NCBI GenBank assembly: GCA_947600145.1
Contig: CANQGA010000005.1
Span: 1 to 39,979 of the forward strand
DNA from: an uncultured Lachnospiraceae bacterium
GTDB lineage: Bacteria; Bacillota; Clostridia; Lachnospirales; Lachnospiraceae
Direction of reading: 5' to 3'
DNA: 39,979 nt
Below are positions 2,908-35,948 of this stretch, one piece after another. The notes beneath the pieces were generated by a model. It made no database searches. It was not told where the DNA came from and worked only from the letters and a program-made list of their open reading frames with translations. The stretch's first letter is position 1. The number at the start of each line of letters is the position of its first letter. The translations under genes were made by a program, and so were the position numbers.

Positions 2908-4095
2908 CTAAAGCGGAGTCGTTACATCTTCAAATGGAGTACTTCCGTCCAGATGGGTCTCGACCGACAGCGGATATTTGGCCGCGTATTTGCAGAAGCC
3001 GGTACCGTAAGCGTCCTGGCGGGCTCTCGCCGATATCTCCTCCCGCTTGGCCGTCTCCGGCTCGCCGATCAGGTACGCGTACTGGATCTCGGTCCATTTG
3101 GCCATGCCCTCGTAGACCTCAAGTTCCTGCTCTTTGCCGTACATCTGGCGGATCGCCTTGGCATCCCAGTTTACATACTGCCAGACATGGGTCAGTTCAT
3201 GGGCAATGGTCATGGCCGACGCCAGACGCGGCGAACCGTTCTCCAGAAGGAGCGCGTAATCGTTCCTGCCGCTCTTGATCGCGACGCCCACGACGCGTCC
3301 GTCGCTCTTGCCGGTCGGGATAAATGTTTTCCCGAGGCGGCTGTGGAGCTTCTTGGCATTCACCATCTGCACCTTCACGGGAACCGTGATCTTCGCGCCG
3401 AAGAAGGACTCCAGATTCTGCTTCACTTCCGTGTAGATCCGCTCGAATTCTTCCACAGTGCGGACCGCGGTCCGGCTGCAGTTCGTGCAGCGCTCGCGGC
3501 CGTCTGCCAGCACATCATATTCCGTGCCCGTCAGTTCAATGCCGCAGAAATCGCAGTAATGGACGCCGGGCTTGTTGGGCGCGAAATTCTTCTCGATCAG
3601 GTCCGCCGCGTTCTTGCCCTTTCGGGCCTGTTTCAGCGGGCCGTTGTCGAACCCGTAGCCTTTCAGGAATTCCAGCGTTCCCTTCAGGTCCATCTGTTTC
3701 GGGACCTCCGCCCCGCCGTACAGCAGGTAGTATCTGTCATAATACGGAGCGCGCTCGGGCGGTTTCATAGGCTTGACTGCCTTCGCCGGCTCGAAGACGA
3801 ACTGATCCGTTTCCGGCGGCTGAGCCGCCGGTTCGGCGGCTGCTTCTGCCGGTTCGGCAGGTGCGGCTGCCTCTTTTTCCGGTTCGGCTGCCGGTTCCGC
3901 CGTTGCTTCCGGTACAGCGGATTGTGGTGCGGCTGCCGCTTCCGGCTCCAGGGCAGCGGGTTCCGGTTCGGCTGCCGCTTCCTCCTCTGCTTTCATCGGT
4001 TCCTCCCGGAGGGAGTCTGTTTCTTCGGGAGCCGCATTTGCATTCGACGCAGGAACTTCTACACTGTAAAGCCGCCGGATACTCTGATGCATCAC
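2908..4095 (-). CDS. LIM-like zinc ribbon + DA1-like HExxH metallopeptidase with Ala/Glu/Pro-rich N-terminal region
   Basis: CDFCGIELTGTEYDVLADGRERCTNC (C-x2-C...C-x2-C, 3478..3555) followed by IAHELTHVWQYVNWD (HELTHVWQ at 3178..3201) and a downstream EGMAKW (candidate third ligand Glu). Same order and spacing style as plant DA1 family proteins. ATGA overlap with the upstream gene. Confidence 0.75.
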   Translation of the reverse strand: MMHQSIRRLYSVEVPASNANAAPEETDSLREEPMKAEEEAAAEPEPAALEPEAAAAPQSAVPEATAEPAAEPEKEAAAPAEPAEAAAEPAAQPPETDQFVFEPAKAVKPMKPPERAPYYDRYYLLYGGAEVPKQMDLKGTLEFLKGYGFDNGPLKQARKGKNAADLIEKNFAPNKPGVHYCDFCGIELTGTEYDVLADGRERCTNCSRTAVRTVEEFERIYTEVKQNLESFFGAKITVPVKVQMVNAKKLHSRLGKTFIPTGKSDGRVVGVAIKSGRNDYALLLENGSPRLASAMTIAHELTHVWQYVNWDAKAIRQMYGKEQELEVYEGMAKWTEIQYAYLIGEPETAKREEISARARQDAYGTGFCKYAAKYPLSVETHLDGSTPFEDVTTPL

Positions 4096-7000
4096 CTTGC
4101 CTCCCTCCCCTCTGAACCGTCTTCCGTTAACTCATCGTTAAAACTGTCGGCAGGATCCATGTCCGGATCATCCGGCGCCGCGCCTTCCGCGGCAGCGGTT
4201 TTCTCGGATTCCGCGTTCGGTTCCGGAGCCGCAGTCTCCGCTTCCGCAGAGTTCTCAGCCGCCTCCGGGGTCTCGGCCTCTGTTGCCGCGGGATTCTCAG
4301 CCGCCTCCGGTACCTCGACATCTGCTTCCGCGGCATCCTGCACTGTTTCGCTCACCAATTCCGCCGGTTCCGCCTCCGCAGCGTCCTCAGCCATTTCCGG
4401 CTCCGCAGCCGCCACATTCACAGCACCCTCGACCATTTCCGGCTCCGCAGCCGCCGCCTCCACAGCACCCTCAACCGTCTCAGCCGCCGCAACTTCCGCC
4501 TCCACAGCGCCCTCGACCGTATCCGGCGTCGCAGTTTCCGTCTCCGACGTTTCAGCAGCCGCCTCCGCAGCAACCTCAGCCGTCGCTCCCGCTGCGGCCT
4601 CAGCCGTTGCAGCCTCCTGCGCCGCTTCGCCTACCGGTTCTGCTGCCTCCGCTTCCGCCCCGCTCTTCTTTTTCCTGTCTTTTTTCTTCTTCTCTTTCTT
4701 TGGTTTCTCTTTTTTGTTCTTCCTGCCGAAGATTCTGCCGAAGAGTTCCTTCAGGAACGAGAACGGCCCTTTCTTCTTCGGCTTCTCTCCTTCCGGAACC
4801 GGCGGCGCCTTGAAGTCCGGCGTCTCCGGCTTCGGCGGCGGGTTCAGGCTCTCGTCAAGCGTTTCCAGATGCCAGTCCAGATAATCGCAGACGATCGAGA
4901 AGATCCGATACAGGTTTCTCTCAACCGCGACCAGCAGACCGATATCCAGCTGGCTGTCCTCGATCAGATAGATCGCGTTCCTGTCCGGCTCGAACCGGAC
5001 GGCGCCTTCCGCGTTCTCAGGATCGCCGCTCCCATCAGCCCCTCTCAGGCCGTAGGTCAGCGGAACGCCCGGCTCGCCGGCCGTGACGGCCACGATGTAG
5101 CTCTGGTTCTCCGCGAACAGCGTCCGGAACACCTCATTGAACAGAACGGTCAGCGTATAGCGGATCTCATCCGTGAAGCCTTCCTGCGCGGACGGGAAAT
5201 CAAGCCGCAGCACCTGCTTATTATAGTATTCCCTCTCCGGGATCCCGTTGATCGTCACTTTCTTGGCGTTGGCGAAATCATTGTAGCTGCCCATCTGCCA
5301 GTAGGCCGGCGTCTTCACGCGGAAATCCGCGTACTGCCGGGTGACCCTAATGCCGCCGATGTCACGGCATGCGCCCATTTCCGGGCAGTCCTCGGCGCGG
5401 CTCATCACATACTCGCGCACCTGGCGGTAGCTGGGCCGCCCCACGATATGGTCGGCCGCGCGGCGCACCTGCACCTGTCCGTCCGGAGTGACCGAGATCA
5501 TTTCATAATATTTGCCGTTAAATGTCAGGAACTGACCCGGCAGATATTTCTGATAGATATGCCCTCTGAGCTCTGTTCCGAGATAATGGTTCTGCCTGTC
5601 CTCGTCCTCAGCGATATACCGCGCGTTCTGCAGGTCATTTAACATGACCCTCTTGAACCGCTCGCCGACGATCGTATACAGCGTCTCCATCCGGCCGGTC
5701 TCGATCGAGTAACGGCGCTTCATCTGGATCACGGAGCGGCTGAAGACATAGCTGCGCTTCTCCGCGAAGCGGGTCAGAACGACCTCGCCGGATTCGTCCT
5801 TGCCGACCTTGCCCACATGGCGGCCCCACGTGCAGATCTCATCCCACAGACGGTCCAGAAGATTGTCCGTATCCACGTGGACCAGCATCAGCTCCCGCTT
5901 GAGCTCCTCTTCACGCAGATAGCCGGAGCTCATCCGCAGGCACAGTCGGAACGCCACATTTCTCCGGGTCCGGGCATAGTCCGCCACGATATAGGGGATC
6001 GCTTTCGGGTCCGTATTGAAGATCCCGTCGTTCTCCGTCATATAGTCGCGGAGCAGATATTCCGGGGAGATCACATTGATAAAGCTCTGCTCTGTCGCAC
6101 GGGTCGCGAAATTCCGTTTCAGCTCGAACAGGTTGTACGATTCATCCTCGATGGTCAGATAGCTGACCTTTCTCTGCCGCTCATTCCACAGATTCTGCGA
6201 TACGACAAAGCATTTATCGATCATTTCCTGATGCAGAGGCAGGTTCGCGTAGTGCAGCAGGTCATAGTAGTACTGCTTCACGATCCAGTGCATATCCGCC
6301 ACCGGGAACGCGTCGCCGCCGTACCACATGGTCCGGGACACCTGATTCTTAAGCGCCACGAAGGACAGCTCGGTTCCCACGCCCAGGTACCTGGATACAT
6401 TGGGCAGCATCCGGTGCTGGAGATACTCCTGGTCCGGGGCCCAGCACATGTAGGTGCACGTGCCCTTGTGATGGTTGGTCGCGGAGACCTCGGTCAGATT
6501 CGTCATCAGGATGTGGGACAATGCGTCCACCAGTCCGTCGCAGTTCTTGTCGACCGAGCAGAACGTCACGTCCTTCTTCGGCCCGCGGCAGTGGCGAACC
6601 ACGGAATTTAAGCCTACCTGGGCCGTTGTGACCAGCTTGGACGGCTCGATGATCATCACGAACTCCACCATTTCAAAGAACGGGTGGTTCTTCTCATGCA
6701 TCCGCAGGTCGTGAACGGCGGAGCGGCTGATAATACCGACATCCGGCATCTCGTCATAGCGGCTCAGTTCCGCCACACGCCACAGATCCGGCACATTGGA
6801 GATGGACTGCAGCCCCTCCCTGCACCAGGTGATCACGTCCTCTTCGATCCCGTGGCGGCCCAGCACCACCAGCACCTTCTTATGGCGTAGCAGGGTCCGG
6901 TCCATCGCGTAGAACGCGTAGGGGATCAGATCGTAGTAGAACGGATCGTTAAATAAAATGCTCTTGCCCAGCAGCAGGTCGCGGCCGGAGCTTAAGTAAT

Positions 7001-7991
7001 TCTGATCCAGCTCCATGCCTTCCAGCATGCGCCTGCGCATGTAAATGGAATACGCTTCCTGGCGGGTATCGCCGCTGCGCGCCATTGCCGTCAGCAGTTC
7101 GTCGTTCGTCGAACTGTTCATCACATCGCTGGTGACGGTCGTGTCGTCCGCGGTCAGCTTGTCTCCGAAGAGATCCTTGAGGATCTGGCGCAGCAGCACG
7201 TAACGGTGCATACTGCGGGCCTTCTCGTCCTCTCCGCCCAGGCTCCCCTCCAGTTCTTCCTTCGTAAGCCCGCCCAGCAGGAAATAGATCTCTCCCACCA
7301 TAATGATCGCGAACACCGGATGGAAGGGCGCCGCCAGGTAATGCAGCTGGTACAGCCGCACGGACGCGAACATGGCCGCCATGGCAATGACCACCGCCGC
7401 CCGGTAAAACGTCATCAGATACGTTCTGGCCTGTCCGAAATGCGGTTTCAGATACCAGACGTCCCTCTCGTAATCATAATCATAGAACAGCTTCGCGGCC
7501 AGTTCGTAAAGGCTGCTGCCGTTTTTGAACGCTCTTTTCATAATGGCCAGAAGGATCTTCTTGACCACAAGATAAGCCGCCAGGATCGCCGTATTGACGC
7601 ACACCAGCGCCGTAAGGACCACATCGGTCCTGCGCAGGAACGCGTCCAGCCGGTCGCCCCACTGACCGACGGCAAAGCCAAGGTCCCTGATCCGGCCGGC
7701 CATGTCGGCCCCGAGTCTGGCCCCGGCTTCTTCGGCGGCCGTCGTCTTCAGCCACTCTTCCGCACGCCCCAGCAGATAGGGGATCCGGTTCACCAGGTCC
7801 AGGCACCATTCACTGATCCGGCCGACCAGCAGCATCGTGACGACACATCCGATGACCGCCGCGACCGGCATCAGGAACTGACGGCTGCGGACCGGTTTCT
7901 TCAGATTGACCTTACTGTCCAGAAGGAGCAGCACGAGGAACGGCAAAAATGCCAGGAGAACGCCGCTTAATCTCATAATCGTCTCAATCAT
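4092..7991 (-). CDS. Large multi-TM membrane protein of unknown function; central region possibly a degenerate SF2 helicase-like core; Lys-rich then Ala/Glu-rich C-terminal tail
   Basis: 1299-aa ORF; hydrophobic segments near the N-terminus (GVLLAFLPFLVLLLL, FLMPVAAVIGCVVTMLLV, VVLTALVCVNTAILAAYLVV, AAVVIAMAAMFASVRL, FAIIMVGEIYFLLGG). Starts 8 nt before the stop of the upstream gene. Confidence 0.8.
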   Translation of the reverse strand: MIETIMRLSGVLLAFLPFLVLLLLDSKVNLKKPVRSRQFLMPVAAVIGCVVTMLLVGRISEWCLDLVNRIPYLLGRAEEWLKTTAAEEAGARLGADMAGRIRDLGFAVGQWGDRLDAFLRRTDVVLTALVCVNTAILAAYLVVKKILLAIMKRAFKNGSSLYELAAKLFYDYDYERDVWYLKPHFGQARTYLMTFYRAAVVIAMAAMFASVRLYQLHYLAAPFHPVFAIIMVGEIYFLLGGLTKEELEGSLGGEDEKARSMHRYVLLRQILKDLFGDKLTADDTTVTSDVMNSSTNDELLTAMARSGDTRQEAYSIYMRRRMLEGMELDQNYLSSGRDLLLGKSILFNDPFYYDLIPYAFYAMDRTLLRHKKVLVVLGRHGIEEDVITWCREGLQSISNVPDLWRVAELSRYDEMPDVGIISRSAVHDLRMHEKNHPFFEMVEFVMIIEPSKLVTTAQVGLNSVVRHCRGPKKDVTFCSVDKNCDGLVDALSHILMTNLTEVSATNHHKGTCTYMCWAPDQEYLQHRMLPNVSRYLGVGTELSFVALKNQVSRTMWYGGDAFPVADMHWIVKQYYYDLLHYANLPLHQEMIDKCFVVSQNLWNERQRKVSYLTIEDESYNLFELKRNFATRATEQSFINVISPEYLLRDYMTENDGIFNTDPKAIPYIVADYARTRRNVAFRLCLRMSSGYLREEELKRELMLVHVDTDNLLDRLWDEICTWGRHVGKVGKDESGEVVLTRFAEKRSYVFSRSVIQMKRRYSIETGRMETLYTIVGERFKRVMLNDLQNARYIAEDEDRQNHYLGTELRGHIYQKYLPGQFLTFNGKYYEMISVTPDGQVQVRRAADHIVGRPSYRQVREYVMSRAEDCPEMGACRDIGGIRVTRQYADFRVKTPAYWQMGSYNDFANAKKVTINGIPEREYYNKQVLRLDFPSAQEGFTDEIRYTLTVLFNEVFRTLFAENQSYIVAVTAGEPGVPLTYGLRGADGSGDPENAEGAVRFEPDRNAIYLIEDSQLDIGLLVAVERNLYRIFSIVCDYLDWHLETLDESLNPPPKPETPDFKAPPVPEGEKPKKKGPFSFLKELFGRIFGRKNKKEKPKKEKKKKDRKKKSGAEAEAAEPVGEAAQEAATAEAAAGATAEVAAEAAAETSETETATPDTVEGAVEAEVAAAETVEGAVEAAAAEPEMVEGAVNVAAAEPEMAEDAAEAEPAELVSETVQDAAEADVEVPEAAENPAATEAETPEAAENSAEAETAAPEPNAESEKTAAAEGAAPDDPDMDPADSFNDELTEDGSEGREAR

Positions 7992-10062
7992 ACAGCTCCT
8001 CCAATCCCACCGTGATGCGCTTCACGAAGTCCACGGGAACATAGATCGTACTGCCGGCCTTCATATACTCAATCTGCCGCTTCTCGCCCTCGGTGAAGGG
8101 CATCGGATAATCGAAGTCAGCCGGACTGCTGTAATCATAGAGATAGGGGCCCGTCAGCTGCTCGTCTACGAACGAAAGGTCTGTCATATAAGGTCCGAAG
8201 ACGGCTGTGATCTCTTCCCGGTACCTGCGGATATCATCCATGTGCTTTCTTCTGATACGGATCTGAAGCGTATCCGCGTCGTCATGCTCGTTGAAGTAAT
8301 TGATAATGGAAGTGCCGCGCATCACATTGCAGGCCATGCTCAGATAGCGTGAGAACTGCTGCATGGCGCCGTCGATCTCGCCGCGTATTCCTCCCATTAC
8401 TCCGTTAAAATCGCTTATCCTCTGTTTCAGGGCGCCGCGCAGGCAGTAAAGGCAAATGATCCCCACCAGCAGCATCAGAAGCAGAGAAGCCCCCACGACC
8501 GCCGAACTGGCTCCGAGATAGGAACCTGTACTGCTGTTGCCCATAAACAGCGGCACAAACCCGACCAGGAACACCGCGAGGACGGCAATGCCCGTCGCGA
8601 TCGTTGTGATCCTGGTCATTCGGGCGTCGATCTTCTCGCGGACGACCTTGTCCTCTTCCTCCATCGTCTTTCGGAACGGACCGGCGTCGCTGACATCCCG
8701 GGTCTGCACCTCTACCATGCGCAGCTCCGAATCCGCCACAAATTCTTTCACATCTTCAACCTGGAATGAGTTCATCTGCTTCGCCCTGGACGCGTCCAGG
8801 CTGTCCATGGCATGGAAGCTCTCCACAGACTTGCGCAGACCGCGGTGCACCTGCTTAAGCAGCCGGTACAGCGTCCGCTCCGACTCCAGATAGTCCGTCT
8901 CCCAGGCGTATTCTTCATTCTTCGGACAGTCAAACGAAAGCCCGATACCCTTCTTGTCCGCATAAAGTCCGCTGTCGTCAAAAGCAGCGTCCACCGTTAC
9001 GGGAACCGTGACCTGAGTGCAGTATTCCGCCTCTACATCATGATCCGTGATCTTCGCCTTTGTCTTGGATTCCAGATTCCTGATCTCCGCCTCAATGACC
9101 TCCTCCGTCGCGGCAAGCTTCGCGCTGTAGGACACCATCATCCTGCGGAGCGCATCCTCGTCATTGACGCAGTCCAGCCGGTACACCCGGTTCGGCCGCA
9201 GGCTGTCCGCCGGCACGTCGTTGCTCGCGAACAGCAGCGCCGCGTACAGAAAACGGATATAATCAAAGGTATAGTTCTGATGATCCTTCGGCAGGATATC
9301 AAAGATCAGATACCGCATCTTGTCAAAATACAGGTTCCAGTCATAGAACCGTGAATACTGGTGGGAGCTGTAGGAAGACCACGAGTAATCGATATCGCAC
9401 TGCGCGTCGCTGTAAGTGCGCATCGCGATGCAGTATACCTCCGCCGGCATATGGATCCCCAGCGACTCTTCGCCTATGATCTCCTTCTCGCGGATCTCCT
9501 CCTTGCATCTTGCCTCGTCCAGATACCCTTTAAATTCCGGGTCGCTCGCGGCCAGATTATTGTGACCCCCTGACACGACCGGCGGCTCGCAGAAATGCGT
9601 GACCAGCCGAACCAGAGGTTCCGACGCCGCCTCGCGGAAGGCGGCCGTCTTCGCCTCAAGCACAGCCTTATAGTATTCCTGTACCTTTATCCGGTACTCT
9701 TCTACGGCCTCGTCATAGGCCTTCTGCGCAGCGGCCCTGTCGTCGTCACTGTCCGATGCGGGCTTTACCTTTTTCGGCGCTTCCGGCTTCTCGGGCGCCG
9801 TATACTTCACCCGTTCAAACGGATTCCTCTGCTCAATGCCTTCCTCATCGCAGAGGATGACGACGCGCCACTGCTCATGGCGCGCCACCGTCCTCACCAG
9901 CTCCGGCACGGCGTCCCTGATCGTCTTCGCCTCACGATCCCACTGGCAGAACGCGACCTTGTCCTTATTCACGAAGGGCTTCAGAAAGATGTTATACTCA
10001 TGTATACTGTCCAAATGCGGTTTCTCCGCGATCATTACAGTAAACACTTGGTCTACCTCCAT
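7984..10062 (-). CDS. Conserved-type hypothetical protein with two adjacent TM helices and coiled-coil-like segments
   Basis: 692-aa ORF; IATGIAVLAVFLVGFVPLFMG and GASSAVVGASLLLMLLVGIICLYCL; sits between the tubulin-like and 1299-aa genes with minimal spacing. The start is uncertain (a GTG at about 10047 has the better-placed GGAGGT). Confidence 0.75.
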   Translation of the reverse strand: MEVDQVFTVMIAEKPHLDSIHEYNIFLKPFVNKDKVAFCQWDREAKTIRDAVPELVRTVARHEQWRVVILCDEEGIEQRNPFERVKYTAPEKPEAPKKVKPASDSDDDRAAAQKAYDEAVEEYRIKVQEYYKAVLEAKTAAFREAASEPLVRLVTHFCEPPVVSGGHNNLAASDPEFKGYLDEARCKEEIREKEIIGEESLGIHMPAEVYCIAMRTYSDAQCDIDYSWSSYSSHQYSRFYDWNLYFDKMRYLIFDILPKDHQNYTFDYIRFLYAALLFASNDVPADSLRPNRVYRLDCVNDEDALRRMMVSYSAKLAATEEVIEAEIRNLESKTKAKITDHDVEAEYCTQVTVPVTVDAAFDDSGLYADKKGIGLSFDCPKNEEYAWETDYLESERTLYRLLKQVHRGLRKSVESFHAMDSLDASRAKQMNSFQVEDVKEFVADSELRMVEVQTRDVSDAGPFRKTMEEEDKVVREKIDARMTRITTIATGIAVLAVFLVGFVPLFMGNSSTGSYLGASSAVVGASLLLMLLVGIICLYCLRGALKQRISDFNGVMGGIRGEIDGAMQQFSRYLSMACNVMRGTSIINYFNEHDDADTLQIRIRRKHMDDIRRYREEITAVFGPYMTDLSFVDEQLTGPYLYDYSSPADFDYPMPFTEGEKRQIEYMKAGSTIYVPVDFVKRITVGLEELYD

Positions 10063-16331: not shown

Positions 16332-16360
16332 ATTATAAATAGCTTTTTGATATTTTACAA
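16332..16360 (-). promoter_or_regulatory. Predicted sigma-70/A promoter for the VWA-tubulin operon
   Basis: Minus strand TTGTAA (16360-16355), 17-nt spacer, TATAAT (16337-16332); about 40 nt upstream of the VWA ATG; AT-rich island in a GC-rich region. Confidence 0.75.
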
Positions 16361-16384: not shown

Positions 16385-18190
16385 TCATACATCGTCCTTG
16401 GTCTGCTCCTCCTCCGGCAGCCGGTCAAACGGCACCAGCAGGGGATGAAGCCTGGCCAGGTCGCTGCGGACGGGCGAGTAGCTGTACCCCTCCGTTCGCA
16501 TATAGGCGTTCCAGCCCACATGTTCCACAAGCTGGATCCCGCGGCGCTCCTCGGCCGTCCGCCCGGCAAGCGGCTTATCGGCCGCCGGCACATGCATCTT
16601 CACGCGGATACTGCGGCGGATCTCTTTCGCCACAGAGGAACGGTAATAATAATCATACCGGTCAAACTCGCGCTTTTTGGACCACTGTTCCTCCTCCGGG
16701 GCGAATCTGCTCCAATACTCATGGTTCTCTCTTCCCGCGCGCTCCAGCTCCGATTTCATGATCACTTCCCAGGAATAATTCTCCCTGACATCCCCGATGA
16801 ACTCGATCCCGTACGGCTCCTTCCGGCAGTTTTTCAGCTCATATTTGCCGAGGGCCTCATTCTTGACGGAACCGGCCACCACCGCGGTGATCTTCACATC
16901 GGGCTGTCCCTCCCTCAGGAAGATCTCCCTTAAGCGGATCGCCGTCTCGATATTTAAGTCGTCGTCTCCCAGCGCCACGAACACGCGCGAAAATCTGCCG
17001 GCCTTCTCAAGTTCATCCTGGAACGCCTTCGTGCGCACGTCGAAGCCATGGTCACCGTCCCTGCGGTGAAAACAGATCGTGTAGCGGGCCTCGCCGTCCT
17101 CGACCAGACCGTTCCGCGCCATCAGCTCCGGGCACGCGCCGGCAAACCGCTCTTCCACGCCCGGATCCAGGTCAAACACATGGACCGTCAGATGATAGCC
17201 CGGCATCTGCCCGCACCAGACCATCGCCTTCAGGAATTCGATGCCGATGCGTCCGGCGCCGATCACAGCCGCCCGGATCTGCCTGACGCCGTCCTCTTCC
17301 GATACCGGCGCGGCAAATACGTCCTCGCGGTACAGATAGCTGTACACCAGCGACTGGGGCACGTCGATCCGGCGCACCCGCATCACCATCTCGTCCGTCA
17401 TCACGGACGCCATCAGAGCCGCCCCGACGGCGGTGGAATTAAAGAAATATATGGATCCGTTCTCATGCTTTCCGTATTTCTCCGCCAGGCCAAGCATCAG
17501 CTGGATGTTCTCATTGTCGTCCGCCCCCATGAGGAAGAAATGCACCCGCTTCCCGCCCCACCACCGGATGGGCAGTTCAAGGAGATCTCTCCTTACGCAG
17601 ATGCCGGGCACTTCGGTGCCGGCAGGCAGGGCTTCGCCGCTTTCATCCCGGCCGGTAGCAAACACCGCCTTCGGCTTAAACGGCCAGACCCTTACCGGGG
17701 AATTCTTCAGGCAGTCTGCCGCCAGCAGGACGGAGCGTTCATTCAGCTCAGAAAAGACGTAGAGATCCGAATACAGTCCCAGAGCCAGCGCGATCTGCCC
17801 GGTAAAATAGCTGAGGATCGCGGCGATCGCGCCGACGGTTATGACCGGCGCGATCCCGTGAAAGACAGCTCCGAGGATCAGATAGGCGTTGGCGGCCGCC
17901 TGCGGCAATTCGGGAACACCCGCCCGGAAGCTGTCGTAGTCTCCATCCAGGCTGAACACCTGCATCGTGTTCTGCAGACTGATAAAGACAGCCTTCCAGA
18001 AGGCTCCCGCCTCGCCGGCAAAATCGGTCAGGTGGACCGGAAAGATCAGCGCGAACGTGCCGGCCGCCGTCAGGCCCATCGCCCACCAGACGACAGAAAA
18101 CCTGACTTTGATAAAGAAGCGGCAGATAAGCTGCAGCACGAACAGCAGGATGCATCCGAACGCAATGGCCAGACAGATATTCCAGATCAT
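16385..18190 (-). CDS. 4-TM membrane protein with tandem RCK/TrkA-N-like Rossmann regions and C-terminal RyR-like domain
   Basis: N-terminal hydrophobic helices; SDLYVFSELNERSVLLAADCL; RAAVIGAGRIGIEFLKAMVW (GxGxxG); C-terminus EHVGWNAYMRTEGYSYSPVRSDLARLHPLLVPFDRLPEEEQTKDD (16388..16543) matches the RyR-domain pattern (EH..W......GW.yG....d....HP.LvpY..L...E...D). Confidence 0.75.
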   Translation of the reverse strand: MIWNICLAIAFGCILLFVLQLICRFFIKVRFSVVWWAMGLTAAGTFALIFPVHLTDFAGEAGAFWKAVFISLQNTMQVFSLDGDYDSFRAGVPELPQAAANAYLILGAVFHGIAPVITVGAIAAILSYFTGQIALALGLYSDLYVFSELNERSVLLAADCLKNSPVRVWPFKPKAVFATGRDESGEALPAGTEVPGICVRRDLLELPIRWWGGKRVHFFLMGADDNENIQLMLGLAEKYGKHENGSIYFFNSTAVGAALMASVMTDEMVMRVRRIDVPQSLVYSYLYREDVFAAPVSEEDGVRQIRAAVIGAGRIGIEFLKAMVWCGQMPGYHLTVHVFDLDPGVEERFAGACPELMARNGLVEDGEARYTICFHRRDGDHGFDVRTKAFQDELEKAGRFSRVFVALGDDDLNIETAIRLREIFLREGQPDVKITAVVAGSVKNEALGKYELKNCRKEPYGIEFIGDVRENYSWEVIMKSELERAGRENHEYWSRFAPEEEQWSKKREFDRYDYYYRSSVAKEIRRSIRVKMHVPAADKPLAGRTAEERRGIQLVEHVGWNAYMRTEGYSYSPVRSDLARLHPLLVPFDRLPEEEQTKDDV

Positions 18191-19166: not shown

Positions 19167-19179
19167 CTCTTGTGAAAGC

Positions 19180-19268
19180 GGAGATGAAGGGATTCGAACC
19201 CTTGTGCCGGGATGAACCGACAAACGCATTTCGAGTGCGCCGCGTTACGGCCGCTTCGCTACATCTCC
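19180..19268 (-). tRNA. tRNA-Ser(CGA)
   Basis: Minus strand GGAGATGTAGCGAAGCGGCCGTAACGCGGCGCACTCGAAATGCG...GGGTTCGAATCCCTTCATCTCC; acceptor ends pair, anticodon CGA, long class II variable arm, T-loop GGTTCGAATCC; CCA not encoded. Confidence 0.95.
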
Positions 19269-31446: not shown

Positions 31447-34400
31447 TCATTCCACCGTCTTCAGGCTTTCCACCATATCCACCTTCTTAAGCTTAAAATG
31501 GGCCGCGATGTTGACGATGACCGAGAAGAACACCGTCAGAACCGCCGCCAGCACATACGCGTAGGGCGGCGCGGTACGCCCGAACATGACCAGATTGACC
31601 TCTACCGTAAGGACCAGCCAGGAATGCAGAAAACGCCCCATGACCAGCCCCAGAAGGATCCCGAAGATCGTCAGGAAAATATTTTCGCGGTAGACGTAGG
31701 CTGTGGTCTCCCGGTCATAGAAGCCCAGAACCTTGAGCGTGGCCAGCTCCCGGGTCCGCTCGGTGATATTGATGTTCGTCAGGTTATAAAGAACCACAAA
31801 AGCCAGCGCGGCGGCCGCGATGATGATGATAACTACCGCATAGTCGATGGCCACCATACTGTCCGTGAAGCTGTCCCGGATCGTGGCGATGTAAGAGTAG
31901 GAGGTAACAGCGTCCATCTCCATCAGCTCCACCGACACCCGCTCGGACTGGTCCGCGCCGGCCCCGAAAGCATAGCGGAGCAGGAGCACATTGTCCTCCG
32001 GCTCCTCGCCGAACAGCTGCATGTAGACGCCCTCAGACAGATAGACGTAATGCCGGACGTAGTTTTCCGCGATATCGGAGACCACGGCCGTAACACGCGT
32101 ATCATCCTTCTCCAGCGTGATCGTGTCCCCCGCCCGGACGTCCAGAAGCTCCGACAGCTTCTCGGTAATGATGACGCCGTCATCCGGCAGGACCACCGGC
32201 TCGCTGTCCAGACGATGGCGGAGGTCGATGAATCTGGTAAATTCTTCCATATCCTTCACCGCGAACAGGAAGACGTCATAGGCCGGCCCATCCGTCGAAG
32301 CCTCGGCCATGGACTGCGAGGAGACCAGGTATTCCTCAACATTTTCATTGGCGGACAGGTAGCTTTCCACGGAGGCGGTCTCCGCGGGATCCGCGTCAGC
32401 GTCCAGACCTACAGACGCGTCGTAGAGCGAGATCTCGTCAAACTGGCGGTTCAGGATCGAGAAAATGGAGTCGTGCAGACCGAAACCGGTGACGATCAGG
32501 GCCGTGCAGCCGCCGATTCCGATCACGGTCATCCAGAAGCGCCTCTTATAGCGGAACAGGTTGCGCATCGTCACCTTCCATGTGAAGGAGAGCCTGCCCC
32601 AGAGCGGCCGTATGTATTCGAGGAAGACACGCTTGCCGGGCTTGGGAGCGCGGGGCCGCATCAAATTGGCCGGAGTATCCACCAATGTGGACAGACAGGC
32701 CCAGAGCGCCGCGCCGGTGGTGCAGAAGACCGCCGCCAGCACCGAGATCACATAAGTCGCCATCTGGTTCTTAAACCGCAGCGCGGGGATATTGTACATG
32801 ATGTTAAACGCGTTGGCGATCACGCCGGGAATCAGCGTACAGCCCAGCATCAGGCCAAGCACGCCGCCGATCAGGCTGGCCGCCAGGGCATAGCCGATAT
32901 ATTTTCTGGAAATGGACAGACGCGAGAAGCCCAGCGCCTTCAGGGCGCCGATCTGGGTCCTCTGCTCCTCCACCATCCTGGTCATCGTAGTCAGGCAGGC
33001 CAGCGCCGCAACCAGGAAAAAGATCACCGGGAAGATGTTGGCCAGATTGCCGATCCGCTCCGAATCCTGTCCGTAGCCCTCAAAACCGGCGTTCGTATTG
33101 CGGCCCAGCACATACCACTCACATTCGTCGATCTCAGCGAGCTCCTCCCTCGCGTCGTCCAGCTCGGCCTGGGCGTCGTCCAGTTTCTGCTGCGCGTCGG
33201 CGATCTTCTCGTCGGCTTCCTTCTTCCCGTCCTCATACTCTTCCAGACCGTCGGCATATTCCTGCTCGCCGTCAGTAAGCTCGGCAAGGGCGTCGTCCAG
33301 CTCCTTCCGGCCGTCGGCGCGGGCGTCCTCCAGTTCGGCCGCTCCGTCGTTATATTCCTCCCAGCCGTCAGCCAGCTCCCGCTCGCCGTCCTCGATCTCG
33401 ACGCGGGCGTCTTCCAGTTCTTTCCAGGCGTCGTCCAGTTCGGTACGGCCGTCGGCAAGCTCCTTTTCCGCGTCGGCAAGCTCGCTCTTCGCGTCCTCCA
33501 GCTCCCTGCGGGCATCTGCCAGCTGCGAACGGGCGGATTCGATCTCAGACTGGGCGGAAGACAGCTGGGACTGGGCGGCTTTCAGTTTTGCCTCATTTTG
33601 GGCCGCTTCAGCATATCCATAATTGATCTGCCTTTCCAGTTCTTCAAACGTATAAATCCAGGCGATCTGATTTCCTATGCTTGCAGCCATATTCCGAAGT
33701 TCATTCCGCTTTTCTTCCGCATTATGGATTTTCTGCGTCAATTCATCTCTTTTCTGAGCATTCCCCGGAGTTGCAGGACCGAGTCCTGCGAGTTCCGCCT
33801 GAAGCCCGGCCAACTCATTCTCCGTTCCCAGCAATCCAGCCTCCAGCTGTTCCCTTTGTGACAACAGCTCAGGCAACATAGCCTTACCTTTCTCATACTC
33901 TGACCTGTTTTCCTCCAGCTGCGCTTCACCAGCCTTTAATTCCGCCAGCTTCTGCTCATACAGCGCCAAGCCGTCGGCATACTCCCTCCGTCCGGCCTCA
34001 TAGGCCGACAATCCGCTGCTGTATTCCGACTGACCGTCCGCGTATTCCTTCTGTCCGTCTTCGTATGCCTTCCTGCCGTCCTCATACTCCTTCACGCCGT
34101 CCTCATACTCGGCAAGCCCGTCCTGGTATTCTTTCATTCCGTCGGCGTACTGCTGTTTGCCGTCCGCCAGCTCCCGCTCGGCGTCCAGAAGCTCCTGATG
34201 CGCGTCCGCCAGCTCTTTCTTTGCGTCCCGGATCTCCTCATCATAGGTATCCTGACCCTCACGGTAATCTTTCCAGCCGTCGTCCAGCTCCTGCCGCGCG
34301 TCCATAAGCTCCTGCCGCGCGTCCGCCAGCTCTTTCTCCGCGTCGTCCTGCGCGTCAGCCAGTTCTTCCCGGGCGTCGTCCAGTTCCGCCTGCGCGTCGT

Positions 34401-35244
34401 CGATCTCTTCCCGGGCGTCCCCGACCACCGACGCATAGCGAAGCCGGGCCCGCTCATCCGCCAGTCCGTCCAGACTGTCCAGGAGCGCGTCCAACCGGTC
34501 GTCGTATTCATCCCCATAGCTGTCCAGCTCCCGAAAACCTTCGCCGGTAAAATAAGCCATGGTATAGTAGTCGTAACTGAAATTCTCTTCCGGAACATAC
34601 ACGAAACCATCGACAGAACCGCCGCCCAGGGAAGAAGTTCCCCTGTCCGTACCCACATAGAGGGGACTGTTCACGACGCCTGTGATGGTATAAGACAGAT
34701 TCTCCAGATCGCCCTCATTGTCCTCGTCCAGGACCAGTTCCAGACGATCCCCCACATTCAGGCCAAGCTCGATCAGCAGAAGCCGCTCGGTGACGCACTC
34801 ATCGGCCTTCTCAGGCAGACGTCCTTCAACGGTCTCCAGCAGATTCAGCCGCCGCGGCATGGAACGGACGCTGACGATGGCGTCCTGGGCAATGGCGTCC
34901 ACCGACCAGATGCCTTCCGCATCCTCGATCCCCGCCTGGGCAGACAGCACATCCAGATCCTCATCCGTCAGTCCCAGCGTGGAGATCACATAACCGTCCA
35001 TCAGGTTCGTGCGGTCGTAATAGCCGTCGGCAGTATACTGCATATCCGGCGCAGTTGTCCGAAGACCCGCCAGAAATGCCACAGCCAGCCCGGACAGGAT
35101 CAGGATAGACAAAAAACGGCTGAATGTGTTTTTGACCTCCCGCAGCGCGTCGGTGGTCAGACGGTCCCTGTGAAGGCGCGGTCTGCCCGCGCGGCGCTTC
35201 GTCTTTTCATCATGACCGGCCGGTCCGGCCCCGCCGCCTACCAT
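31447..35244 (-). CDS. FtsX-like/MacB-type ABC transporter permease with very long extracytoplasmic heptad-repeat coiled coil
   Basis: 1265 aa; N-terminal TM, two FtsX-like blocks (FFLVAALACLTTMTRMVEEQRTQIGALKALGFSRLSI; IIAAAALAFVVLYNLTNINITERTRELATLKVLGFYDRE), central heptads (EYEDGVKEYEDGRKAYEDGQKEYADGQ). Confidence 0.92.
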   Translation of the reverse strand: MVGGGAGPAGHDEKTKRRAGRPRLHRDRLTTDALREVKNTFSRFLSILILSGLAVAFLAGLRTTAPDMQYTADGYYDRTNLMDGYVISTLGLTDEDLDVLSAQAGIEDAEGIWSVDAIAQDAIVSVRSMPRRLNLLETVEGRLPEKADECVTERLLLIELGLNVGDRLELVLDEDNEGDLENLSYTITGVVNSPLYVGTDRGTSSLGGGSVDGFVYVPEENFSYDYYTMAYFTGEGFRELDSYGDEYDDRLDALLDSLDGLADERARLRYASVVGDAREEIDDAQAELDDAREELADAQDDAEKELADARQELMDARQELDDGWKDYREGQDTYDEEIRDAKKELADAHQELLDAERELADGKQQYADGMKEYQDGLAEYEDGVKEYEDGRKAYEDGQKEYADGQSEYSSGLSAYEAGRREYADGLALYEQKLAELKAGEAQLEENRSEYEKGKAMLPELLSQREQLEAGLLGTENELAGLQAELAGLGPATPGNAQKRDELTQKIHNAEEKRNELRNMAASIGNQIAWIYTFEELERQINYGYAEAAQNEAKLKAAQSQLSSAQSEIESARSQLADARRELEDAKSELADAEKELADGRTELDDAWKELEDARVEIEDGERELADGWEEYNDGAAELEDARADGRKELDDALAELTDGEQEYADGLEEYEDGKKEADEKIADAQQKLDDAQAELDDAREELAEIDECEWYVLGRNTNAGFEGYGQDSERIGNLANIFPVIFFLVAALACLTTMTRMVEEQRTQIGALKALGFSRLSISRKYIGYALAASLIGGVLGLMLGCTLIPGVIANAFNIMYNIPALRFKNQMATYVISVLAAVFCTTGAALWACLSTLVDTPANLMRPRAPKPGKRVFLEYIRPLWGRLSFTWKVTMRNLFRYKRRFWMTVIGIGGCTALIVTGFGLHDSIFSILNRQFDEISLYDASVGLDADADPAETASVESYLSANENVEEYLVSSQSMAEASTDGPAYDVFLFAVKDMEEFTRFIDLRHRLDSEPVVLPDDGVIITEKLSELLDVRAGDTITLEKDDTRVTAVVSDIAENYVRHYVYLSEGVYMQLFGEEPEDNVLLLRYAFGAGADQSERVSVELMEMDAVTSYSYIATIRDSFTDSMVAIDYAVVIIIIAAAALAFVVLYNLTNINITERTRELATLKVLGFYDRETTAYVYRENIFLTIFGILLGLVMGRFLHSWLVLTVEVNLVMFGRTAPPYAYVLAAVLTVFFSVIVNIAAHFKLKKVDMVESLKTVE

Positions 35245-35948
35245 TCGATCTCCTCCACCGGAGTCGGATGATCATTCTGCTCGATGGCGGCCACCCGGCC
35301 GTTCTTCACATGGATCACCCGGTCGGCCATCGGCGTGATCGCCGTGTTGTGGGTAATGACCACCACGGTCATACCGCCCTGGCGGCAGGTATCCTGCAAA
35401 AGCTTTAAGATCGCCTTGCCGGTCACATAATCAAGCGCTCCCGTCGGTTCATCGCACAGCAGCAGCTTGGGATTCTTCGCCAGCGCCCTGGCGATCGCTA
35501 CCCTCTGCTGCTCGCCGCCGGACAGCTGTGCAGGAAAATTGCCCAGCCGGTCCCCCAGGCCCACATGCTCCAGCACGGTCTTCGCGTCCAGCGGATCGTC
35601 GCAGATCTGAGCCGCCAGCTCCACGTTCTCCAGGGCCGTCAGATTCTGGACCAGATTATAGAACTGGAACACGAAACCGATATCATGCCGCCGGTAAGCG
35701 GTCAGCTGCCGGGAATTATAGCCGCTGACTTTCGCGCCGTCCACGATGATCGTACCGCCGGAACAGGCGTCCATACCGCCCAGCATATTAAGGACCGTCG
35801 TCTTTCCGGCTCCGGACGGTCCTACGATCACGGCGAACTCACCCTTCTCGATGGCGAAACTCACGCCGTCCACCGCGTTGATGGTGACTTCACCCATCTG
35901 ATATATTTTCCTGACATCTTCGAATGATATGTAGCTCAAAAAGGTCAC
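35238..35948 (-). CDS. ABC transporter ATP-binding protein (LolD/MacB-type)
   Basis: Walker [13 protein letters not shown]; signature [15 protein letters not shown]; Walker [13 protein letters not shown]. Confidence 0.96.

Follow-up and report, generated by a model that had tools for sequence, protein, structure and literature searches.

A predicted zinc gluzincin that in most relatives is the tail of a membrane-anchored helicase-like protein beside tubulin, and probably the protein-cutting arm of a membrane complex

The FtsZl1/VWA operons were named by Makarova and Koonin in 2010, and the accessible part of that paper places them in membrane remodelling (PMC2875224). It describes Tubulin_2, VWA and function-unassigned transmembrane (TM) proteins in one operon and lists kinases, GTPases and OmpA-like proteins; that part does not speak of any peptidase or helicase-like component. 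A text search of titles and abstracts found no evident experimental follow-up on FtsZl1 since the naming. Two further described systems bear on the locus reported here. The first is the plant DA1/DAR family (PF12315), in which the active site of DA1 is HEMMH-x15-EE and the C274Y substitution in its LIM-like domain abolishes both ubiquitylation and peptidase activity (PMC5322733). The second is the group of MrfA/DUF1998 SF2 helicases, whose fold recurs in the partner protein of the peptidase we describe.

A tubulin cassette with a predicted peptidase in gut and rumen Clostridia

The window (the whole 39,979-nucleotide stretch analysed, from an uncultured Lachnospiraceae bacterium) carries the genes collected in Table 1. 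A Tubulin_2 gene and a VWA gene lie together upstream of the peptidase gene on the same strand, by which the operon can be assigned from its sequence to the FtsZl1/VWA type, with the limit that the VWA_2 match (E 4.5e-4) is under the Pfam cut-off. The first-pass annotation had placed the peptidase in a cytoskeletal operon and this was borne out; the tubulin linkage recurs in the relatives.

Table 1. Features of the operon and of the peptidase gene in the window
Feature	Position	Strand	Remarks
Zinc-ribbon gluzincin peptidase gene (predicted)	2908..4095	(-)	395 aa from GTG 4095, 394 aa from ATG 4092
EGMAKW, residues 329-334	3094..3111	(-)	E, G, M, W invariant
HELTH, residues 299-303, predicted zinc-binding/catalytic motif	3187..3201	(-)	H, E, H invariant
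Four-cysteine treble-clef-type zinc ribbon (predicted)	3478..3555	(-)	C181xxC184-x18-C203xxC206; invariant in 24 homologues
Junction of the two genes	4090..4109	(-)	TGA 4092-4094 overlaps ATG 4090-4092; purine-rich ribosome site GGGAGGGAGG at 4100-4109
1299-aa membrane protein	4092..7991	(-)	Five predicted TM helices (5-239); pseudo-helicase region about 296-1085
First RecA-like part of pseudo-helicase	6492..7106	(-)	NDPFYYD at Walker A position, IEPSKL at DEAD
692-aa protein	7984..10062	(-)	Two-TM hairpin (488-540); constant cassette partner
Tubulin_2/FtsZl1 protein, 1203 aa	10087..13698	(-)	PF13809, E 8.3e-52
VWA protein, 860 aa	13711..16293	(-)	Signal-like N-terminus, TM 684-702, cytosolic tail
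Sigma-70-like promoter upstream of VWA gene	16332..16360	(-)	TTGTAA-17-TATAAT; consensus match alone
601-aa membrane protein	16385..18190	(-)	Weak C-terminal RyR match; recurrent neighbour, variable position

Relatives were gathered from one genome of the same family and by a profile scan of genome contigs with a two-sequence alignment, the latter yielding 23 peptidase loci whose titles name Clostridia, Clostridiales, Lachnospiraceae, Oscillospiraceae, Eubacterium, Roseburia or Ruminococcus MAGs, all of them gut or rumen Clostridia. The resulting alignment of 24 rows, in which the relatives are MAGs, reaches down to 36% identity, and the closest relative, L033, is 64% identical. Where the flanks suffice, the gene order is VWA, Tubulin_2, 692-type and 1299-type (with the peptidase), VWA being undetected in some loci; no locus with enough flank lacks a 692-type protein, and Tubulin_2 is present wherever the contig extends to it. 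A 601-aa-type protein is near in about six loci, upstream in the window and downstream elsewhere. The spread is patchy, with the peptidase in 2/145 relatives and the 1299-type partner in 5/341 of the class, and among 40 pattern stretches from viral contigs there was no relative of the peptidase family.

The core cassette can do without the peptidase: genome G502 has Tubulin_2, a 678-aa ORF in the 692-type place and a 998-aa distant 1299-type protein (L069:8968-11964), with the peptidase absent, so that the peptidase was either added to a wider core or lost from one. In other Tubulin_2 loci of the relatives the 1299-type protein is absent.

Several observations concern the surroundings. One contig carries five tandem Tubulin_2 matches inside 20 kb (L028, G005:C14:1-20000). 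Upstream of the window operon lies an Rfam-confirmed tRNA-Ser(CGA) at 19178-19268 (-); a tRNA-Arg call at 3814-3903 (+), within the linker, was rejected, being without Rfam confirmation. By eye, the 1265-aa protein at 31447-35244 (-) resembles a permease of the FtsX/MacB type into which a long, D/E/A-rich coiled coil is inserted; an ABC ATPase-like gene (35238-35948) adjoins it.

The peptidase and its likely kinship with DA1

The HELTH, EGMAKW and CxxC residues first read in this ORF are present in it (the ribbon reads CDFC at 181-184 and CTNC at 203-206), and E329, the predicted third zinc ligand, lies 25 residues past H303. All 24 aligned sequences share the four cysteines, the two histidines and the glutamate of HExxH, the residues of E-G-M-x-x-W and, further on, those of Y-G-x-G. 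In the AlphaFold model (pLDDT 81, pTM 0.75), which is confident and zincin-like, the finger is followed by a helix, then by a small sheet, and then by the helices bearing HExxH and EG, in that order; these two helices are neighbours, in a region where pLDDT is mostly above 90. Because these residues are invariant and so placed in the model, the motifs are not due to chance, and the initial proposal of a zinc ribbon with a gluzincin HExxH...EG behind it is supported. The ORF is accordingly classed, at the level of sequence and model, as a predicted zinc peptidase of the gluzincin (clan MA) type, having the HExxH helix and the downstream Glu ligand; as the motif residues do not vary among the relatives, we discarded the possibility that the enzyme is dead.

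Database comparisons place the protein less directly. No Pfam domain scored above its cut-off, sequence searches of the PDB, by the protein itself as well as by the family profile, gave no meaningful match, and Foldseek with the model against the PDB and viral models gave none at E<=0.001, the weaker matches being largely gluzincins and other HExxH peptidases. For PF12315, whose gathering cut-off is 25 bits, the window peptidase has no match at E<=1; 5/24 members do (best E 0.007), none of them reaches the cut-off, and nothing passes it in 250 genomes of the phylum. By the Pfam standard, then, the peptidase is not a member of the DA1 family. A canonical LIM domain (PF00412), which the LIM reading would imply, is likewise unsupported, since no such match is listed and there are just two CxxC pairs. 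A bacterial DA1 relative in Roseiflexus was reportedly covered by Burroughs et al. in 2011.

The PF12315 model begins after the LIM-like finger of DA1, which lies outside it, and for this reason the family was compared with the DA1 sequence itself. For this we used what we take to be Arabidopsis DA1, a sequence that Pfam assigns to PF12315 (E 8e-97) and LIM (E 5e-9). With this one DA1 sequence, on which the whole comparison rests, hhalign gave E 2e-6 at a probability of 89.5% over 127 columns and 27% identity, and in an hmmsearch of 1,857 sequences with the family profile DA1 was the top non-family match at 28.3 bits (E 1.2e-7), as compared to at most 4.6 bits for 200 shuffles; it also ranked above unrelated ORFs. 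The match runs through ribbon, linker and HExxH in that order. On dissection the finger is required, HExxH is worth 7 bits, and shuffling the DA1 linker alone costs 8 bits of the score, which 6/500 shuffles reach, while the C-terminal part of DA1 contributes nothing to the family profile score. A C-terminal YGxGF likeness noticed by eye was dropped, being without statistical support. DA1 gave no match when searched against plasmids, and there was no DA1 structure in the PDB copy searched.

Like plant DA1/DAR, the family has a CxxC...CxxC finger right before a helix, a linker, HExxH and then EG; the active-site spacing, HELTH-x25-EG in the window, is of the same kind but longer. Unlike DA1/DAR it has one finger in place of DA1's four CxxC/H pairs and adds an N-terminal part and a membrane partner. 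Based on the score dissection and the Pfam result together, we consider remote homology to DA1 over the LIM-like finger, linker and HExxH to be likely from the sequence comparisons. Of the original DA1-like assignment, the remote similarity of the finger-plus-peptidase unit therefore stands and PF12315 membership does not; the DA1 order of parts is recovered from ribbon to HExxH, with no signal in the C-terminal part.

Alternatively, the peptidase core might have its origin among gluzincins on the side of DUF6055/DUF6782/BSP, the ribbon having been gained independently and the likeness to DA1 being convergent. DUF6782 is reached at E<=1 in 24/24 members (best 3.5e-4) and DUF6055 in 21/24 (best 1.3e-5), as compared to 5/24 for PF12315; the active-site surroundings, HELxHxxQ and EGxAxW, are shared with these metallopeptidases, and in short stretches around the active site DUF6055, DUF6782 and BSP match as well as PF12315 or better. 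The ribbon on its own, judged by eye, also resembles DksA/TraR-like and ClpX-like fingers. These are, however, short local matches under cut-off; no confident placement in an unrelated gluzincin family resulted, and over the whole protein DA1's 28.3 bits stand against at most 11.2 for DUF6055/DUF6782/BSP and at most 17.9 for unrelated ribbon and finger proteins. With the cost of shuffling the DA1 linker added, we regard a convergent origin as unlikely.

The membrane-anchored partner, fusion and fission

Pfam found no convincing domain in 17 members of the 1299-type protein. A model of residues 240-1085 of the 1299-aa protein, to be read with caution at pTM 0.48, matched MrfA in Foldseek (E 4.6e-18), along with numerous further SF2 helicases. 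Walker A and DEAD/DEAH motifs are absent from 17/17 1299-type proteins, so the resemblance to MrfA/DUF1998 helicases is one of fold; the 1299-type partner differs in being membrane-anchored and without these motifs. The TM loops carry net charges of +3.9 (loop 1), +3.1 (loop 3) and about zero (loops 2 and 4), from which the large C-terminal part would face the cytosol by the charge rule. An A/E/P-rich acidic linker follows the pseudo-helicase region in the 1299-aa protein, and the acidic-rich linker before the peptidase measures 89 to 304 residues.

Reading the frames, we found the peptidase fused to the 1299-type membrane protein in 19/23 readable loci (L033-L038, L040-L042, L044-L046, L050-L052, L054, L055, L070 and L071) and split from it in four, namely the window, L047, L048 and L049; L039, L043 and L053, in which the contig or the frame is cut, were left out of this count. 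The split state is scattered over the peptidase tree, needing 4 changes, at least 3 of them forced by supported branches. In a supported clade (L036, L039-L043 and L046) the frame continues past the peptidase. A scan of five of these seven extensions, omitting L039 and L040, placed Transglut_core over its cut-off in L036:11075-12280, L041:10955-12160 and L042:10850-12085 (E 6e-7 to 9e-6), and matched a transglutaminase-like core below cut-off in L043 and L046.

In the window the stop of the 1299-aa gene and the start of the peptidase gene overlap as TGATG behind GGGAGGGAGG, which looks like translational coupling of the two. The split might instead be an assembly frameshift in a gene that is truly one fused ORF, as the nearest relative is fused and the window's two frames lie one base apart in a low-complexity linker. 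Against this, the overlap carries a strong ribosome site, splits are seen at three more loci, in two of which the start is well formed, and the split loci do not group together as nearest kin; a frameshift thus appears distinctly unlikely to us.

The first-pass annotation saw in the protein a bacterial homologue of DA1, probably free in the cytosol, that could act on its neighbours, and it is true that the window peptidase is a separate ORF with DA1 profile similarity and, as confirmed here, no TM segment or signal peptide in its 395 aa. Yet most relatives bear the domain covalently within a membrane protein, L033 among them, and every member misses the PF12315 cut-off; the free-enzyme reading is unsupported because of the fusions to a membrane-anchored pseudo-helicase, and we hold it very improbable.

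Proposed function and meaning

In most relatives the domain forms the tail of a membrane-anchored helicase-like protein beside tubulin, and for this reason a role as the protein-cutting arm of a membrane complex is probable. Our preferred reading, to which we give a probability of roughly 0.6, is that the predicted zinc gluzincin is the C-terminal, cytosol-facing arm of a membrane-anchored scaffold in an FtsZl1/VWA complex. What we computed is the conservation of the motifs, the fusions and splits, the constancy of the operon, the lost helicase motifs, charge topology and the remote DA1 similarity; from these we infer that the protein binds zinc and is catalytic, that a complex forms, that FtsZl1 or a ligand exerts control, and what the substrate would be. 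For the window, where the peptidase is a separate chain, tethering would hang on non-covalent contact or a recent split.

In such a complex the 1299-aa scaffold would be held by about five TM helices and present an MrfA-type SF2-helicase-like fold that has lost its ATP-binding motifs. The peptidase module, a treble-clef-type ribbon followed by an HExxH-x25-E active site, would act as a zinc-dependent endopeptidase, and the long acidic linker would let it swing on the cytosolic side. FtsZl1 (Tubulin_2), the two-TM protein and usually the VWA protein would be its partners. Cleavage, the target being a protein close by in the cytosol or near the membrane, may be controlled by the assembly of FtsZl1 or by a ligand that the pseudo-helicase binds. 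The ribbon might gate the enzyme or dock its substrate, as proposed for the LIM-like domain of DA1; the loss of activity in DA1 C274Y (PMC5322733) makes such a role of the finger plausible.

A conflict or defence device, with the pseudo-helicase as a sensor of foreign nucleic acid that sets off proteolysis, seems to us a poor candidate: a possible helicase-fold sensor does adjoin the protease, a transglutaminase-like domain is appended in some members and the distribution is patchy (patchiness by itself not being evidence of defence), but PADLOC gave zero matches for the six operon proteins, the viral contigs held no family member, and the accessible part of Makarova and Koonin assigns these operons to membrane remodelling (PMC2875224).

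Returning to the membrane-complex reading, the recurrent predicted catalytic component offers a first assayable handle on the FtsZl1/VWA operons, and in these bacterial proteins a DA1-type unit of finger and peptidase may be open to study in the absence of ubiquitin. We would speculate, tentatively and with more doubt than confidence, that here a tubulin-based membrane complex uses a helicase fold devoid of nucleotide motifs as its membrane scaffold to position a DA1-related peptidase for limited proteolysis at the membrane, controlled by polymer or ligand and outside ubiquitin signalling.
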